Below, piece after piece: positions 55,727-63,408 of a stretch of 64,000 bases of DNA. The DNA lies in assembly GCF_009392895.1 (NCBI RefSeq), contig NZ_CP045488.1, forward strand, positions 186,001 to 250,000, given 5' to 3'. Every line of letters starts with the position of its first letter. The first letter of the stretch is position 1. A program made the translations under genes and the position numbers. A model generated the notes under the pieces. That model was given only the letters and a program-made list of their open reading frames with translations. It did not search any database and was not told the DNA's origin. This DNA is from Natronorubrum aibiense. Lineage in GTDB: Archaea; Halobacteriota; Halobacteria; Halobacteriales; Natrialbaceae.

Positions 55727-57118
55727 ATGAGCGACGCAGAACACCCTACCGACGACGGCGTATCGAGCGACGACGAGTTCGAACCGATTCAGGTCTTTCC
55801 CGAGGCCGAGGAGATGGATCTCCGGCCAGGGGCCGACAACTGTTATAAGTGTTCGACCTGCGACACGAACTGTCCCGTCGCCGAGGTCGACGACGAGTTC
55901 CCCGGGCCGAAGTTCCAAGGCCCGGAGCAGTGGCGACTCAAACGACAGGACGACCACGACATCGACGACTCCGTGATGAAGTGTTCGAACTGTATGCGCT
56001 GTGATAGCGCCTGCCCCTCCGAGGTGCCGCTCTCGCAGATGCACAACACGGCTCGAGGCGAGTACGTCGACGAGCACATGAACAAACTCTCTCGAGAGTA
56101 CATCCGTAACCGACTCCTCGCGAACTACCGGCGACTCGCGCCACTGGCCGCGACCTTCCCCCGCACGGCGAACTTCGTGATGGGGCTGTCGGTCACCCAG
56201 TGGCTCGGCGAGAAGACGCTGGGCATCACGAGCGAGCGGGAGTTCCCCGAGTTCGCGACCGAGACGTTCCGGGAGTGGTGGACGGTGCGAGGTGGCAACG
56301 CCACCTCGAAACAGCGAGCGCAGGAAGCGCGAGCAGAGCGCGGCGCAAAGGTCGAAAACTCCGACAAGCGCATCGCGTACTTCCACGGCTGTTACTCGAA
56401 CTACAACACCCCCGAGGTCGCGAAGGCGCTCGTCCGCGTCTACGAACACTTCGGCTACGAGGTCATGGTCCCCGATCAGGCCTGTTCGGGCACGCCGATG
56501 TTCGCCAACGGCATGCTCGAGGACGCTCGCCGGGCCGCCGAGACGAACGTCAGTGAACTCGCCGATGCACTCGAAGCGGGGGCCGACATCATCGCCTCCT
56601 GTAGCTCCTGTTCGATGTCGATTCGCCAGGAGTACCCCGAACTGTTCGACTTCGAGGGGACCGACGACGTCGCCGCGAACACCTGGGACGCCGTCGAATA
56701 CCTCCGCGTCCACGAGGACCTCGAGGGCGAACTCGAGGGGACTTCCCTCGAGGACGAGTCCTTCGCCTATCACGCACCGTGTCATTCACGTAACCAGGGC
56801 CTCGATGGACAAACGATCGAAGTGCTAGGGGCAATCGATGGGATCGACGCACACGACGTCGGCGACTCCTGTTCTGGAATCTCCGGGACGTACGGCTGGA
56901 AGGAAGAGAACTACGAGACGTCGATGAAAATCGGCGAGGAGATGTTCGAGCACATGGACGACGCGCCCGCAGAGACCGGCCTGACGGAGTGTCCGACCTG
57001 CTCGATGCAGATGGAACACGGCACCGGCTACGAGATCAAACACACCCTCGAGATCCTCGCAGCGGCGCTCGTGGGAACCGATCTCGGAACCGACCGCGAC
57101 GGCCAGCAGGCGAGGTAA
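55727..57118 (+). CDS. glpC: Anaerobic-type glycerol-3-phosphate dehydrogenase subunit C
   Basis: 463 aa. Two ferredoxin-like [4Fe-4S] motifs, CYKCSTCDTNCPVAE and CSNCMRCDSACPSEV, are followed by two CCG domains (YFHGCYSNYNT ... CSGTPMFANGM ... CSSCSMSI; APCHSRNQGLD ... CSGISGTYGWK ... CPTCSMQM). It anchors GlpAB and reduces menaquinone. A signal or anchor helix (FPRTANFVMGLSVTQWLG) lies near residue 140. Its TAA stop overlaps the ATG of the next gene (TAATG). Confidence 0.95.
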   Translation: MSDAEHPTDDGVSSDDEFEPIQVFPEAEEMDLRPGADNCYKCSTCDTNCPVAEVDDEFPGPKFQGPEQWRLKRQDDHDIDDSVMKCSNCMRCDSACPSEVPLSQMHNTARGEYVDEHMNKLSREYIRNRLLANYRRLAPLAATFPRTANFVMGLSVTQWLGEKTLGITSEREFPEFATETFREWWTVRGGNATSKQRAQEARAERGAKVENSDKRIAYFHGCYSNYNTPEVAKALVRVYEHFGYEVMVPDQACSGTPMFANGMLEDARRAAETNVSELADALEAGADIIASCSSCSMSIRQEYPELFDFEGTDDVAANTWDAVEYLRVHEDLEGELEGTSLEDESFAYHAPCHSRNQGLDGQTIEVLGAIDGIDAHDVGDSCSGISGTYGWKEENYETSMKIGEEMFEHMDDAPAETGLTECPTCSMQMEHGTGYEIKHTLEILAAALVGTDLGTDRDGQQAR

Positions 57119-58278
57119 TGAATTTAGAAGAGCGCATCGCCCGGCGACGGTCAGCACGAAAGGACCGGGAGATTATCGTCGACCGTGACGACCTCAGTCC
57201 GGTCGTGCACCGCTCGGAGCCGGTGGGACGGGGACCCGTCTTAGAGCAGTTGCTCGATGCCCTCGAGCCGGTGTTCGACGGCGAGTTGCCGCCGCCGGTA
57301 GCTGTGATCGGTCCCACGGGATCGGGCACGTCGGCGATCATCACGGCGCTGTTCGACGCGTTGAACGACCGACTGAGCGAGTCGACCCGGACGATCGGCA
57401 CGACGACGCGTGCCGGCAGTACCGGGCCGGTGACGTGGTTCGTTTACGTCGACGGGCGACGCGTCGAGAGCGCCTTCGCCTTCTACCGGGCCGTGTTGTC
57501 CGTCCTTTCGAGCGATCCCGTTCCCAAAAGCGGCGTCGGCACCGGCGAACTCCGCGACCGGCTCCAGACCCGACTGGCCCAGCCGAACCACCGTGCAGTG
57601 ATCGCGCTCGACCACCACGACGAGCCCGAATCCCTCGCCTACGACCGGATCGACGACCTGCTCGAGCCGGTCGCCGACAGCGTTTCGACCGTCGCTGTTG
57701 GACAGCGCGAACCCGACGACTGGAACGACGAACGACCGAGCGTACCGGTTCCCGCCTATCGAAACCACGAACTCGTCGATGTTGTGACCGACCGCGCTTC
57801 GACCGGCCTCGCCGCGGGCGTGCTGGATCACGAGTCGATCCGTGACGTCGCAACGTGGGCAGACGGCAATGCACACGATGCGCTCGCCGCCCTGTTCGGT
57901 GCTGGCGTGCTCGCGACCGATGATGGCAGCGACCGGATCGAACCGCACCACCTCGAGATGGCACAGGAGCACGTCCCAGAAAACGGCGTTCACCTGGACC
58001 GCGTGCTGTCGCTCTCGAAGACGCGTCAGCAGGTACTCTCCGACCTCGTCGCCGTCGACTCGGCCGACAGACCCATCCGCGAGGTCGCCGCAGAGATCGC
58101 CAGCCGGTCGTCGCTGACTGCGGGGACGGTCAAACGCTTTCTCTACGAACTGGCCGATCGCGGCATCATCGAACGCGTCCCGCTGCCCGCAAACGGGAGC
58201 GGCCGTCGACCCAGCGCCGTCGTCCCGCGGTTTCCAACGATCGTGTTTCGGGCGCTGGGACCAGCCACGAACAATTGA
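57118..58278 (+). CDS. Orc1/Cdc6-like AAA+ protein with degenerate ATPase motifs
   Basis: 386 aa. Residues 28-110 look like the Orc1/Cdc6 AAA+ start (PVVHRSEPVGRGPVLEQLLDALEPVF). The Walker A position reads G65-PTGSG-T71-S72, so the essential lysine is a threonine; the Walker B region reads VIALD165-H166, so the Glu is His. A C-terminal winged helix (LSKTRQQVLSDLVAVDSADRPIREVAAEIASRSSLTAGTVKRFLYELADRGIIERV, 298-354) remains. It is translationally coupled to glpC (TAATG). A loss of ATP hydrolysis with retained DNA binding would suit a regulator of the glycerol operon. A replication role is less likely. Confidence 0.85.
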   Translation: MNLEERIARRRSARKDREIIVDRDDLSPVVHRSEPVGRGPVLEQLLDALEPVFDGELPPPVAVIGPTGSGTSAIITALFDALNDRLSESTRTIGTTTRAGSTGPVTWFVYVDGRRVESAFAFYRAVLSVLSSDPVPKSGVGTGELRDRLQTRLAQPNHRAVIALDHHDEPESLAYDRIDDLLEPVADSVSTVAVGQREPDDWNDERPSVPVPAYRNHELVDVVTDRASTGLAAGVLDHESIRDVATWADGNAHDALAALFGAGVLATDDGSDRIEPHHLEMAQEHVPENGVHLDRVLSLSKTRQQVLSDLVAVDSADRPIREVAAEIASRSSLTAGTVKRFLYELADRGIIERVPLPANGSGRRPSAVVPRFPTIVFRALGPATNN

Positions 58279-58302: not shown

Positions 58303-59229
58303 TCAGTACTCGAGGTCGTCAGTGTAGCGGTCGACGAGCAAGACCGCGCCCGCACCGACGATACCCGCGACGACGGCCGCGACGGGCGTTCCGGTGGACG
58401 ACTCTCCGAGATTGGTCCAGACTTCCGTGACCGGCAGTCGCAACGATCCGACCATCAGACTCACTAAAAACGCGAGCGTCGCTGCCCGATAGCGCTCGAG
58501 CGCGTATCCCACCACGTGGGCCATCGTGAACAGACCGAGCACCGCGCCGACACCGAAGACGGCGACGACCGTGCCGGATTCGATCACGGGCGCGATCGCG
58601 TCACCCTCGAGCAGCCCGATCAGTCCGTCGACGAACGTACTCAGCGTGCCAGTCATGTACTCGTACTGGCCCAGAATCAGGAGGAAAAAGGCCCCGGAGA
58701 CGCCCGGCAGGACCATCGCACAGATGGCGATCGCACCGGCGACGAAGACCACCAGCGGGCTATGCGGGACGCCGTCCGCCGTCACGCCCGTCACGACGAA
58801 CGCGAGCACGATCGCGACTGCCGAGACCAACAGCCGGCCGCCGGTCCACGTCCCGATCGCTCCGTAGAGGACGATCGCCGACGCCGCGATCAACCCGAAG
58901 AAAAAGCCGTACGTCGGCACCGGGTACGTCGTCGCCGCCCCGTGCATCACCCGCGAGAGGATTACGACCGCCGTCCCGATCCCTAATCCGAGCGTGAGCA
59001 AAAACGGGAGTTCGATCCGCTCGAGTTCCGTCCGGAGGGTCGCCCGTGCTTCGGGGTCGTGGGGTCGAAGTGCGGGTCGAAACGCTCGCGGATCGATCGA
59101 CGTGATCGCTCGGATCAGCCGATCGTAGATCCCGACGATCAACGCGATCGTCGCGCCCGATACACCGGGGACGACGTCTGCCGACCCCATCGAGATCCCT
59201 TTCAGGTATACGGCGAGAAACTCCCGCAT
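58303..59229 (-). CDS. DUF368 family polytopic membrane protein, candidate polyprenyl-phosphate translocase
   Basis: 308 aa with eight to nine membrane helices and the family signatures KGISMGSADVVPGVSGATIALIVGIYDRL (N-terminal) and CAMVLPGVSGAFFLLILGQYEYM (repeat), both with the P-G-x-S-G-A core. Bacterial DUF368 (PopT) proteins are now known to flip undecaprenyl phosphate back to the cytoplasmic leaflet. Here it sits 88 bp downstream of aglB on the same strand, which suggests recycling dolichyl phosphate released by N-glycosylation. This link is inference from context. Confidence 0.9.
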   Translation of the reverse strand: MREFLAVYLKGISMGSADVVPGVSGATIALIVGIYDRLIRAITSIDPRAFRPALRPHDPEARATLRTELERIELPFLLTLGLGIGTAVVILSRVMHGAATTYPVPTYGFFFGLIAASAIVLYGAIGTWTGGRLLVSAVAIVLAFVVTGVTADGVPHSPLVVFVAGAIAICAMVLPGVSGAFFLLILGQYEYMTGTLSTFVDGLIGLLEGDAIAPVIESGTVVAVFGVGAVLGLFTMAHVVGYALERYRAATLAFLVSLMVGSLRLPVTEVWTNLGESSTGTPVAAVVAGIVGAGAVLLVDRYTDDLEY

Positions 59230-59317
59230 TGCCCGGGGGTATTCCGGACGACGACAAAAGGCTTCTCACTCTCGAACCGGGCTGTGAGACGCTCTCACAG
59301 CACGAATCCGCGACGAG

Positions 59318-62281
59318 TTAGTTTTCGGCCGTGTCGTTAGCTGCCGTTCCGTCGTCGGTCGCGGCGTCTTGGTCGTCCATGTTCTCGGCAGCCGTGCCGT
59401 CGTCGGCTGTAGTGTCGTCCGTTTGCTCGTCCGTCTCCTCGAGTTCGACCCGTTCGAACTCGATGTCGTCGATCGCTTCGCCCTCGATCACGTCGGACTC
59501 CGGCACGGCCGTCTGCGCTTCGTATCCCTGCTCGCCCGGCTCGCCGACGGTCAGCGTGTAGTCGCCGACCGCCTCGACGCTACTGTTCGTGTAGCCGTCC
59601 TCGACGCCGAGTTCGTCATTCGTCGCGTACGGGACGGTCAGTTCGAACGAGCCGTCTTCGGCGAGGTCGGCTTCCTGCGTGTAGTTGAACGTCCGGTCGG
59701 CGTTGGTCTCGAGTTCGACGGTGGCGGTCACCGTATCGTTCGACTCGAGAAGGTCGCCCTCGTCCGCGACGGTCCCCGTGAGCGTCGCCCCCTCGACACG
59801 TTCGAACGTCTTCACCGTGGCAGCGCTTCGCGCATCGAACAGTTCTGTGGTCGGGCCCTGCTCGAGTTGGAACAGCTGTTGCTGGTTCACTCGCTGGTTT
59901 ATCTGGACGGCAAGCTGGCCTTCGCCCGGTGGAGCGGGCTCGCCCTCGTTCACGTAGAGCACGTCACCGTCCTCGTACCCCCACGATTCTAACTGTTGGG
60001 CGGTCTGCTGTGGGAACGCGTCGGCAGTGTACACCTGCGCGTAACTGGCGAAGATCGCCGGTCCAGCTTCCTCGTTCTCGTGGACGACACGGTAGTGTTC
60101 CATGCCCGCCGCGTCGTCGAAGTACAGCTGCGACAGCATCGTATCGTAATATGGCACCTCGCCGAACGTTTCGGCGAGTTCGTCCGCTGCGATCGGCTGT
60201 CCCGGCTGATAGTCATCCGGCGTCATGTAGTGGGTGTAGTCCGGCCCCGTCCACTGGGTGATCGCGGGGAACTTCCCACCGGCCATCGCGTGGTCGATCA
60301 TCACGTACCGCATCTCCTCGTGGCTCGCGCCTTCGGCCATCGCCTTGAGGTCCTCGTTCGTGTGAACGTCGGTCCCACGCGGCGACTCGCCCGCAGCGAT
60401 GGCATCGAGGACCAGTTCGCCGCGCTGTTCTGATTCGGCGGTCAGGAACGCCGACGAAGAGCGAGCGTTCTGCTGGAACGGATTCGAGTGGGGAATCCGT
60501 TCGCCCTGTGTCGTTATCAGGTGGCCGTAGTCCCACCACGACATCACGCCGTAGGCACCCTCGGGGTAGTCGTAGTCAGCGCCCTCGGGGTATTCGTAGG
60601 TGCCGTAGTACTCGAGTTCGGAGGCGTTGTCCGCACCGCCCCAGTCTCCCGGTTCGGGCGTGTTCTCTGCGAGCCAGTGGTTCGATTCCTCCCAGACCAT
60701 GGCTTCGTTGTGCGGACCGACGTTTTCGCTGCGATTCCACGCTGTGTCGGTGTCGGCCGCGATCGGTGGCAACAGCGGGGCGAACAGCAGCAAGACGACC
60801 AGCACCAACACGATGATCTGATAGGTCTCGATCTGGCGAAGCGAATCGATGCCGCCCCGAATATCGAGGTCGAAGATCCGGACGACGTCCGCGACGAAGA
60901 CGGCGTTGACGACTGCAACCGCCAGCACGAGGTAGTACGCGAAGCGAAGCTGCGTCGCAGCCATACTGATCAAGAACGCAGACCAGACGAGGATTAGCGT
61001 GTACTCGGCACGGTACTCACGGCCAAACAACGGCCGCGCGACGAGCAGCGCAATCCCCGCGAGCATCGTGTAAAAGGCCGCACCGAACTCGTCGAACACG
61101 TGGCTGGCGAAGTCCTCTGGCGGCTGGGCTTCCGAGATTGTGAGCGTCCCAGCATCCGGATTGAGTGGCAACAGCCGACCCGTGAGGTTGCCCACGAGCG
61201 TGTTGTAGAACTCCGGAAGCACCAGCCACATGAGCCCGAGGGCTGCGACGATGAGCCCAGCGATCGCGGCTGGATAGTAGCGCCGGTCGATGCCACGGTC
61301 GTTCCACTCGCGTGCGAGCCAAGCCATAAAGAGGCTGCCGACCGCGACGAGCAGCGCCGTCCCCGGTTGGAGATAGCCGAAACTCGTGACGCTCGTTCCC
61401 GGCTCCTCGAGCAAGAGCAGCGTCGTCAGTGTCGTCACACCGAGGCTAGTCGCACCGACGAACGCGACGTGGTCGGGAGAGACGCCGCGAACGTAGTCGA
61501 GACAGAGTTGAACGGCGAAGAACACGCCGAAGATACCGATCAGCACGACGCCGGACGGCCAGACCCAGATGTAGAGCGTCAGGGCGAGCCCGGCAAGTAC
61601 GCTGTAGATGGCCGGTTGTCGAAGCGTTTCCCAGTCCTTGTCGACGACGAGTTCGTAGATCGGCTGTTCGCGTTCGGCGACGCGCAACGCGACCATCATC
61701 GAGAGGACGGCGATCGCCATGAACAGCACTTCGGCGACGTGATGTTGGAGTTGGCCGACAGTCGTCCGATAGAGGAACGACCCCGGCGCGAGCGCGAGCA
61801 CGACGACCGAGACGAGCCCGCCGACGGTACCGCCGAGCCGTCGCCCCATGTAGAAGACTGGGATCGCGACGAGCGCCGCCATCGCGGGGACAGTGAGCAA
61901 CGCAACGGAGTAAAGCGTGCTCGTCGACGGATCACCGAGACCGACGATCATCGCGACGGTGACGATGAGCTGGTCGAACAGCGTCCCGAACTGACCGACG
62001 TAATTCCCCGTCGGAAACCCGGTCCATATCTCGTAGGGCATCGTGTTCGGGTAGTTCTCTGCCGTCCACTCGATCGTCCGCCAGTGATACCAGGAGTCGA
62101 TGCCACCCAGCGCGGGCGTGCCGTCCTCGGTGACGAATCGCCCGTACGCCTGGGTCCGTACCCAGAACATAAACAGCATCACCACCCCGATGATGGGGAT
62201 GTGATACCAGTCGGCCCACGTCTGGAGGAACGACGGCGACGTTTCAGCCCCGTCGTCGACGTGTTCAGTGTCCGTACTCAT
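59318..62281 (-). CDS. aglB: Dolichyl-monophosphooligosaccharide--protein glycotransferase AglB
   Basis: 987 aa. Thirteen or so N-terminal membrane helices follow the first catalytic loop (TPALGGIDSWYHWR). The oligosaccharyltransferase signature WWDYG is at residues 582-586 (VMSWWDYGHLITTQGERIPHSNPF). It transfers a dolichol-linked glycan to Asn in N-x-S/T of exported proteins such as the S-layer. The C-terminal 40 residues are a D/T/A-rich tail (for example DEQTDDTTADDGTAAENMDD). ATG 62281 (MSTDTEHVDDG) follows a TATA element (minus GGCTTATTCTT, 62304-62314). Confidence 0.97.
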   Translation of the reverse strand: MSTDTEHVDDGAETSPSFLQTWADWYHIPIIGVVMLFMFWVRTQAYGRFVTEDGTPALGGIDSWYHWRTIEWTAENYPNTMPYEIWTGFPTGNYVGQFGTLFDQLIVTVAMIVGLGDPSTSTLYSVALLTVPAMAALVAIPVFYMGRRLGGTVGGLVSVVVLALAPGSFLYRTTVGQLQHHVAEVLFMAIAVLSMMVALRVAEREQPIYELVVDKDWETLRQPAIYSVLAGLALTLYIWVWPSGVVLIGIFGVFFAVQLCLDYVRGVSPDHVAFVGATSLGVTTLTTLLLLEEPGTSVTSFGYLQPGTALLVAVGSLFMAWLAREWNDRGIDRRYYPAAIAGLIVAALGLMWLVLPEFYNTLVGNLTGRLLPLNPDAGTLTISEAQPPEDFASHVFDEFGAAFYTMLAGIALLVARPLFGREYRAEYTLILVWSAFLISMAATQLRFAYYLVLAVAVVNAVFVADVVRIFDLDIRGGIDSLRQIETYQIIVLVLVVLLLFAPLLPPIAADTDTAWNRSENVGPHNEAMVWEESNHWLAENTPEPGDWGGADNASELEYYGTYEYPEGADYDYPEGAYGVMSWWDYGHLITTQGERIPHSNPFQQNARSSSAFLTAESEQRGELVLDAIAAGESPRGTDVHTNEDLKAMAEGASHEEMRYVMIDHAMAGGKFPAITQWTGPDYTHYMTPDDYQPGQPIAADELAETFGEVPYYDTMLSQLYFDDAAGMEHYRVVHENEEAGPAIFASYAQVYTADAFPQQTAQQLESWGYEDGDVLYVNEGEPAPPGEGQLAVQINQRVNQQQLFQLEQGPTTELFDARSAATVKTFERVEGATLTGTVADEGDLLESNDTVTATVELETNADRTFNYTQEADLAEDGSFELTVPYATNDELGVEDGYTNSSVEAVGDYTLTVGEPGEQGYEAQTAVPESDVIEGEAIDDIEFERVELEETDEQTDDTTADDGTAAENMDDQDAATDDGTAANDTAEN

Positions 62282-62448: not shown

Positions 62449-63408
62449 ATGAAGGTCTCTGTCGTCATCTGTACCTACGCGATGGAACGCTACGACGTGT
62501 TCTCCGAGTGTGTTGACAGCGTACTCGCCCAGACGTACGAGCCACTCGAGGTCGTCATCGTCGTCGACGGGAACGATGCCGTCTTCGATCGCGTCCAGGA
62601 TGACTACGGCGACCTCGAGGACGTCATCCTCCACTGCAACGACGAGAATCAGGGCATTTCGTACAGCCGAACTCGAGGTGCCGAACTCGCAACCGGCAAC
62701 GTCGTGGCGTTTATCGACGACGACGCCGTTGCCGAACCCGACTGGATCGAGGAGTTGGCTCGCGTCTACGACGAGACCGACGCAATCGCTGTCGGTGGCC
62801 ACGCGAAACCCGACTGGGTGACTGAGAAGCCGGAGTTCTTCCCCGAAGAGTTCTACTGGCTGGTCGGCTGTGACGAGCGCGGGATGGGCGAGCACATGGA
62901 GGAACTGCGGAACACGTACGGCTCGAACATCTCGTTTCGCCGTGACGTGTTCCTCAACGTCGGCGGCTACGACGAGAATACCGGCCGGAAAGGCGATCGC
63001 CACATCCAGGCCCACGAGGCGCCGGTCTGCATTCGAATGGCCAACAAGTACGGCAAGGGTGTGATCTACAACACCGACGCCGTGGTCCATCACAAACTGT
63101 TCGACTACCGCGGCGATTTCCGCTGGCTCGTGTTTCGCTCGTTCTGGCAGGGCTACTCCAAACGGATCATGGATATTCTGCTGCCCGAGGCGTCGGGAGA
63201 CAAGAACGAGTATTTGAAGCAGCTCATGCTCGAGTTCGTCCCCGACCGGCTGTTCGATCTCGTCCGCGAGCCGTCGACGGCGAAGGCGAAACAGCTCGTG
63301 ACGATCTTCATCTTTACCGCCGCGGTCGGATTCGGCTATCTGTACGGTCTCATCGACGTCGATCGTTCGGAACTTGCTGCGGATCATGACACTGTAACGG
63401 GACGCTGA
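62449..63408 (+). CDS. aglG: Glycosyltransferase AglG (family 2), dolichol-linked glycan assembly
   Basis: 319 aa. GT-A fold: VSVVICTYAMERYDVFSECVDSVLAQTY, the DxD-type FIDDDAVAEPDW (90-101), and GGHAKPDW. A C-terminal membrane helix (LVTIFIFTAAVGFGYLYGLI) anchors it to the membrane. In Haloferax AglG adds glucuronic acid as the second sugar of the dolichol-linked pentasaccharide; the gene likewise sits next to aglB. It shares the divergent promoter gap with aglB, so glycan building and transfer are probably expressed together. Confidence 0.9.
   Translation: MKVSVVICTYAMERYDVFSECVDSVLAQTYEPLEVVIVVDGNDAVFDRVQDDYGDLEDVILHCNDENQGISYSRTRGAELATGNVVAFIDDDAVAEPDWIEELARVYDETDAIAVGGHAKPDWVTEKPEFFPEEFYWLVGCDERGMGEHMEELRNTYGSNISFRRDVFLNVGGYDENTGRKGDRHIQAHEAPVCIRMANKYGKGVIYNTDAVVHHKLFDYRGDFRWLVFRSFWQGYSKRIMDILLPEASGDKNEYLKQLMLEFVPDRLFDLVREPSTAKAKQLVTIFIFTAAVGFGYLYGLIDVDRSELAADHDTVTGR

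Follow-up and report, generated by a model that had tools for sequence, protein, structure and literature searches.

A DUF368 membrane protein encoded with the oligosaccharyltransferase AglB in Halobacteria: a candidate carrier for dolichyl phosphate

The aglB-DUF368 gene pair and its family assignment

The window, by which we mean the whole 64,000-nucleotide stretch of Natronorubrum aibiense DNA that was analyzed, carries a gene for a DUF368 membrane protein directly behind aglB. The features at the locus are as follows.

58303-59229, minus strand: gene for a DUF368 (PopT-family) putative polyprenyl-phosphate transporter, 308 amino acids (PF04018, 229 bits)
59230-59317, minus strand: aglB-DUF368 intergenic region, 88 bp (comparison with relatives; hairpin fold)
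59318-62281, minus strand: aglB, archaeal oligosaccharyltransferase, 987 amino acids (TIGR04154, 882 bits)
62449-63408, plus strand: aglG-type glucosyl-dolichyl-phosphate glucuronosyltransferase gene (NF041394 equivalog, 535 bits, cut-off 440)

The original prediction placed an intact DUF368 gene 88 bp downstream of aglB on the same strand, and this is what we found: the reading frame starts with ATG and contains no internal stop. The aglB product, 987 residues when counted from its ATG, scored well above the TIGR04154 cut-off of 450 bits, has the WWDYG motif in its translation, and is a relative of the solved AglB 3waj; profile searches recovered its STT3, AglB_core-like, and AglB_L1 domains. 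With the aglG-type gene divergent from aglB, the pair sits in an agl locus. The whole genome gave one PF04018 match and one PF02516 match, although a second aglB is conceivable, as PF02516 overlooks some AglBs. The same genome has three DedA genes at other sites. The closest named relatives are Natronorubrum species, with 90% identity to N. thiooxidans. On the far side of the pair, a gene for a Cdc6/Orc1-like AAA ATPase with a winged-helix end (56989-58278) is convergent with DUF368 and lies beside glpABC; such an ATPase gene recurs at the far edge of the locus both in the window's family and in family f7.

A promoter-like element, GAGTGAGAAGCCTTTTG, is located ∼35 bp before the DUF368 ATG in the window and is conserved in Natrialbaceae. 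The DUF368 genes of the window's family (loci L115 to L128) share the box GAGTGAGAAGsCTTTT, with CCGGAATAC after it, just upstream of the ATG. The promoter-like box and the position of CCGGAATAC near the ATG suggest a leaderless transcript of DUF368's own, and a separate transcript is thus possible in that family. A sigma-70 promoter scan was uninformative for an archaeon. Just past the aglB stop lies a perfect 9-bp inverted repeat, GCTGTGAGAgcgTCTCACAGC, at 59281-59301, and the 88-bp region folds better than its shuffles (z = -2.56); the repeat was not evident in related Natronorubrum.

The DUF368 protein matched PF04018, currently named "VCA0040-like, undecaprenyl phosphate translocase-like" in Pfam, over profile positions 1-227 of 246 and far above the cut-off of 26 bits. 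It fell short of both NCBIfam equivalog models for bacterial PopT, NF052563 and NF052564 (203 and 95 bits, with a cut-off of 400 for each), and it matched PF04018 only, not the DedA/UptA profile PF09335. Judged by these scores, the window protein is a DUF368 family member and not a bacterial PopT equivalog. The two PGxSGA repeats claimed for it are present, one in each half of the protein, as the re-entrant motifs PGVSGA at residues 21-26 and 175-180. Two PGxSG motifs were found in 114 of 115 homologues and are therefore a hallmark of the family. In an alignment of 69 sequences the P, G, S, and G of both motifs are invariant, and D18, R37, Q188, and Y189 are, like the motifs, invariant or nearly so. 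An AlphaFold2 model computed from this alignment (pLDDT of 92.7) is all helical and predicts a multi-helix membrane fold in which helices are broken at both motifs, between residues 19 and 25 and between residues 173 and 179. A sequence search found no solved DUF368 chain, and a Foldseek search of the PDB with the model returned no significant match.

Linkage of DUF368 to aglB across Halobacteria

Is DUF368 found next to aglB in other archaea? DUF368 was present in 192 of 194 Halobacteria genomes. Profile searches detected both genes in 188 genomes and placed them no more than 10 kb apart in 129 of these, with aglB upstream and on the same strand in all 129; about one linked genome would be expected by chance. 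Searches with tblastn added four genomes in which the STT3 profile had overlooked AglB or matched other paralogues, bringing the total to 133 of 191 genomes with both genes linked within 10 kb. Linkage from profiles alone is an undercount, since PF02516 overlooks real AglBs in genomes G043, G069, G149, and G165. Of the 64 genera, 46 include linked members, and so does every one of the nine DUF368-carrying families. The pairing of aglB and DUF368 in Halobacteria is not due to chance, and such conserved clustering with agl genes is what would be expected of an agl pathway component. In one further genome (G162) DUF368 and aglB each lie at a contig end, consistent with an assembly break. A genome of family f5 (G021) gave two STT3 matches and contains AglB, with no detectable DUF368. 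Many genomes of f3 genera (e.g., G016, G055, G083, and G084) encode a second, shorter STT3-family protein in a frame of ∼793 amino acids, far from DUF368.

The junction itself is tight. Among 40 linked loci, each from a different genus, the median gap between aglB and DUF368 was 6 bp; the gap was at most 6 bp in 22 loci, many of them overlapping, and within 157 bp in 39, although start codons were picked automatically and single gap values are approximate. DUF368 is the next gene after aglB in 38 of 58 aglB loci, and the second-best conserved neighbor, a divergent aglG, is immediately adjacent to aglB in 30 of 58 haloarchaeal loci. Beyond DUF368, no gene family follows in more than 5 of 38 loci. 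The flanking genes are far less conserved than the aglB-DUF368 junction; as the linked loci were selected for linkage, the fair comparison is at the level of genera (46 of 64).

Inheritance of the pair and occurrence outside Halobacteria

In a tree of 82 DUF368 proteins, built by a quick method and with many weak branches, linkage to aglB extends across all deep halobacterial branches. Of the unlinked proteins, 18 group in a single clade next to those of family f4 (the family that includes Haloferax), and four are scattered over the tree; the clade is represented in many genomes of the window's family as well as in f3 genera. Linkage follows families, with 5 to 6 changes on the tree compared to 27 expected by shuffling. 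The pair looks like one ancestral arrangement that was vertically inherited.

In the window's family, many aglB loci that lack a linked DUF368 are still flanked as the linked loci are, by aglG on one side and by glpCBA with a Cdc6-like or other gene on the opposite side, and the DUF368 genes of the unlinked lineage sit in varied neighborhoods. One genome of the window's genus (G116) retains the broken relic of a DUF368 gene immediately after aglB and in the same orientation (locus L108, 4213-4630, minus). The relic matches the linked type over residues 178-233 with 57 to 61% identity, preserves a short N-terminal segment, and is interrupted by an in-frame stop; its remaining parts meet near the two PGxSG repeats, as though a deletion between the repeats had removed the middle. 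The intact DUF368 gene of this genome lies elsewhere and belongs to the other lineage, which most unlinked genomes carry; a search of 28 further unlinked loci detected no relic. Genomes that have lost the linked copy thus carry a DUF368 elsewhere, the pattern that would be predicted were the activity required.

One potential explanation for these patterns is that the adjacency is a surviving ancestral gene order with no functional tie. Such an account fits the apparent single, vertically inherited arrangement and the roughly five lineages that have lost the adjacency with no obvious harm. However, the flanks have turned over while the junction was kept in all nine DUF368 families, often with overlap, and genomes that lost the linked copy have another DUF368 gene. 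We consider this explanation very unlikely.

The survey of adjacency proposed for archaea gave a strongly positive result throughout Halobacteria, but close linkage to aglB was seen in none of the 42 other Halobacteriota genomes with DUF368. Five methanogen genomes of family f28 have the two genes 12 to 16 kb apart and were not counted as clusters; in the one examined, the intervening genes are mostly unrelated (mostly TiaS, chaperonin, asparagine synthase, and sensory genes). DUF368 is missing from most of the non-halobacterial Halobacteriota sampled, and M. jannaschii, S. acidocaldarius, and M. acetivorans contain AglB with no PF04018 match. Because many AglB-bearing archaea lack DUF368, archaea must have other ways to perform such a step, and DedA is the obvious candidate; DedA proteins could share the recycling task with DUF368. 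In bacteria, the two families tend toward mutual exclusion (Todor et al., PMC10127716; Pseudomonas study, PMC12893004), and a DUF368 protein can substitute for a DedA protein (PMC12893004). A contig labelled as a Candidatus Nanohalarchaeota metagenome-assembled genome (L133, 8001-8930) encodes a DUF368 protein with 49% identity to that of the window; no AglB was found within 8 kb of it, and contamination is not excluded.

A candidate route for the return of dolichyl phosphate

Published work ties the family to polyprenyl phosphates. S. aureus cells without DUF368 show raised surface undecaprenyl phosphate (C55-P) and amphomycin sensitivity, and expression of the H. volcanii DUF368 protein HVO_RS12060 partially rescues a V. 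cholerae Δvca0040 mutant (Sit et al., PMC9876793). The same authors suggested in general terms that families of this kind may move dolichol phosphate. Partial complementation by the H. volcanii homologue (PMC9876793) points indirectly to a putative polyprenyl-phosphate translocase activity of the window protein. It shares the Pfam family, the two PGxSG motifs, and an all-helical architecture with PopT/VCA0040/SAOUHSC_00846 (DUF368, PF04018, COG2035). In contrast to these proteins, whose context is peptidoglycan, the window gene is archaeal and coupled to aglB, and its presumed substrate is dolichyl rather than undecaprenyl phosphate. UptA/DedA proteins (PF09335), for which the same job is proposed in bacteria, belong to a different family.

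Where does the complementing protein lie relative to the agl genes? By published locus tags, H. volcanii aglG is RS12045, aglB is RS12050, and DUF368 is RS12060, two tags from aglB. The order in Hfx. denitrificans is aglG, aglB, a UDP-glucose dehydrogenase gene of the aglM type, and DUF368, from which we infer that RS12055 is aglM. The H. volcanii agl cluster (aglJ to aglM) shares the aglG-aglB core with the window, and by locus tags its DUF368 gene follows aglB and, presumably, aglM. As published, the cluster spans HVO_1517 to HVO_1531 and ends at aglM, without DUF368 (PMC3871713). The complementing protein is thus encoded just beyond the published end of the cluster, a placement that has apparently gone unnoticed.

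On the basis of these data, we propose that the product of the window gene is a polyprenyl-phosphate transporter of the PopT type (DUF368) and that, in Halobacteria, its ancestral client is N-glycosylation by the AglB pathway, a reading to which we assign a probability of about two-thirds. AglB moves the glycan from dolichyl monophosphate onto protein at the outer face, and dolichyl phosphate stays behind in the outer leaflet; the DUF368 protein would carry this lipid back to the inner leaflet for reloading by AglJ and AglG-type transferases. Since H. volcanii N-glycans are charged on dolichol phosphate (PMC3871713), AglB should release dolichyl monophosphate, the chemical counterpart of the undecaprenyl phosphate recycled by bacterial DUF368. 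We infer that the substrate is probably dolichyl phosphate, that its movement is inward, and that AglB supplies most of it. The adjacency, the overlapping frames, the variable flanks, and the placement of the H. volcanii orthologue support the earlier proposal of DUF368 as a dolichyl-phosphate carrier paired with AglB, as a candidate. To our knowledge, no gene has been assigned in archaea to the return of dolichyl phosphate to the cytoplasmic leaflet after N-glycosylation, and DUF368 is the best candidate for this step in Halobacteria.

The same activity could instead belong to a general housekeeping carrier that serves all dolichyl-phosphate users (a second glycosylation pathway, exopolysaccharide, dolichyl-phosphate-mannose), with aglB merely the largest. 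The near-universal presence of DUF368 in Halobacteria (192 of 194), the varied neighborhoods from which the unlinked lineage works, and the second DolP-based glycosylation pathway of H. volcanii (PMC3871713) are all in line with such a role. Yet aglB is the sole dolichyl-phosphate user seen as a conserved immediate partner, with overlapping frames, and we regard a purely general role as unlikely. A narrower arrangement, in which AglB and DUF368 form a coupled unit, held at a fixed ratio by the overlapping genes, that hands released dolichyl phosphate directly to the carrier for return, seems to us rather improbable. We know of no oligosaccharyltransferase with such a built-in recycling arm.

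Could DUF368 be the outward flippase for the dolichyl-phosphate-linked glycan rather than a retrieval carrier? Its location with genes for glycan assembly and transfer would suit that function. However, bacterial DUF368 acts on uncharged polyprenyl phosphate, as the surface C55-P and amphomycin phenotypes of the mutant indicate (PMC9876793); AglR and Agl15 are already proposed as glycan-carrier flippases (PMC3871713); and a cluster provisionally labelled flippase-like by eye also lies near aglB in 12 of 40 loci. We regard this possibility as very unlikely.

Our literature search found no paper treating both DUF368 and AglB and no archaeal DUF368 deletion strain. Within the literature searched, the family is known and its assignment to archaeal N-glycosylation appears to be new; it would bring into protein glycosylation a family familiar from cell-wall synthesis in bacteria. 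The candidate gene is widespread, is single copy in most Halobacteria, and is present in the genetic model H. volcanii, so the question is directly testable. Carrier-lipid recycling also involves the undecaprenyl-pyrophosphate phosphatase BacA/UppP, a membrane protein with re-entrant repeats. BacA/UppP was a weak, nonsignificant fold match to the window model (E of 0.08, TM below 0.2); it is a phosphatase, whereas dolichyl monophosphate would need none.
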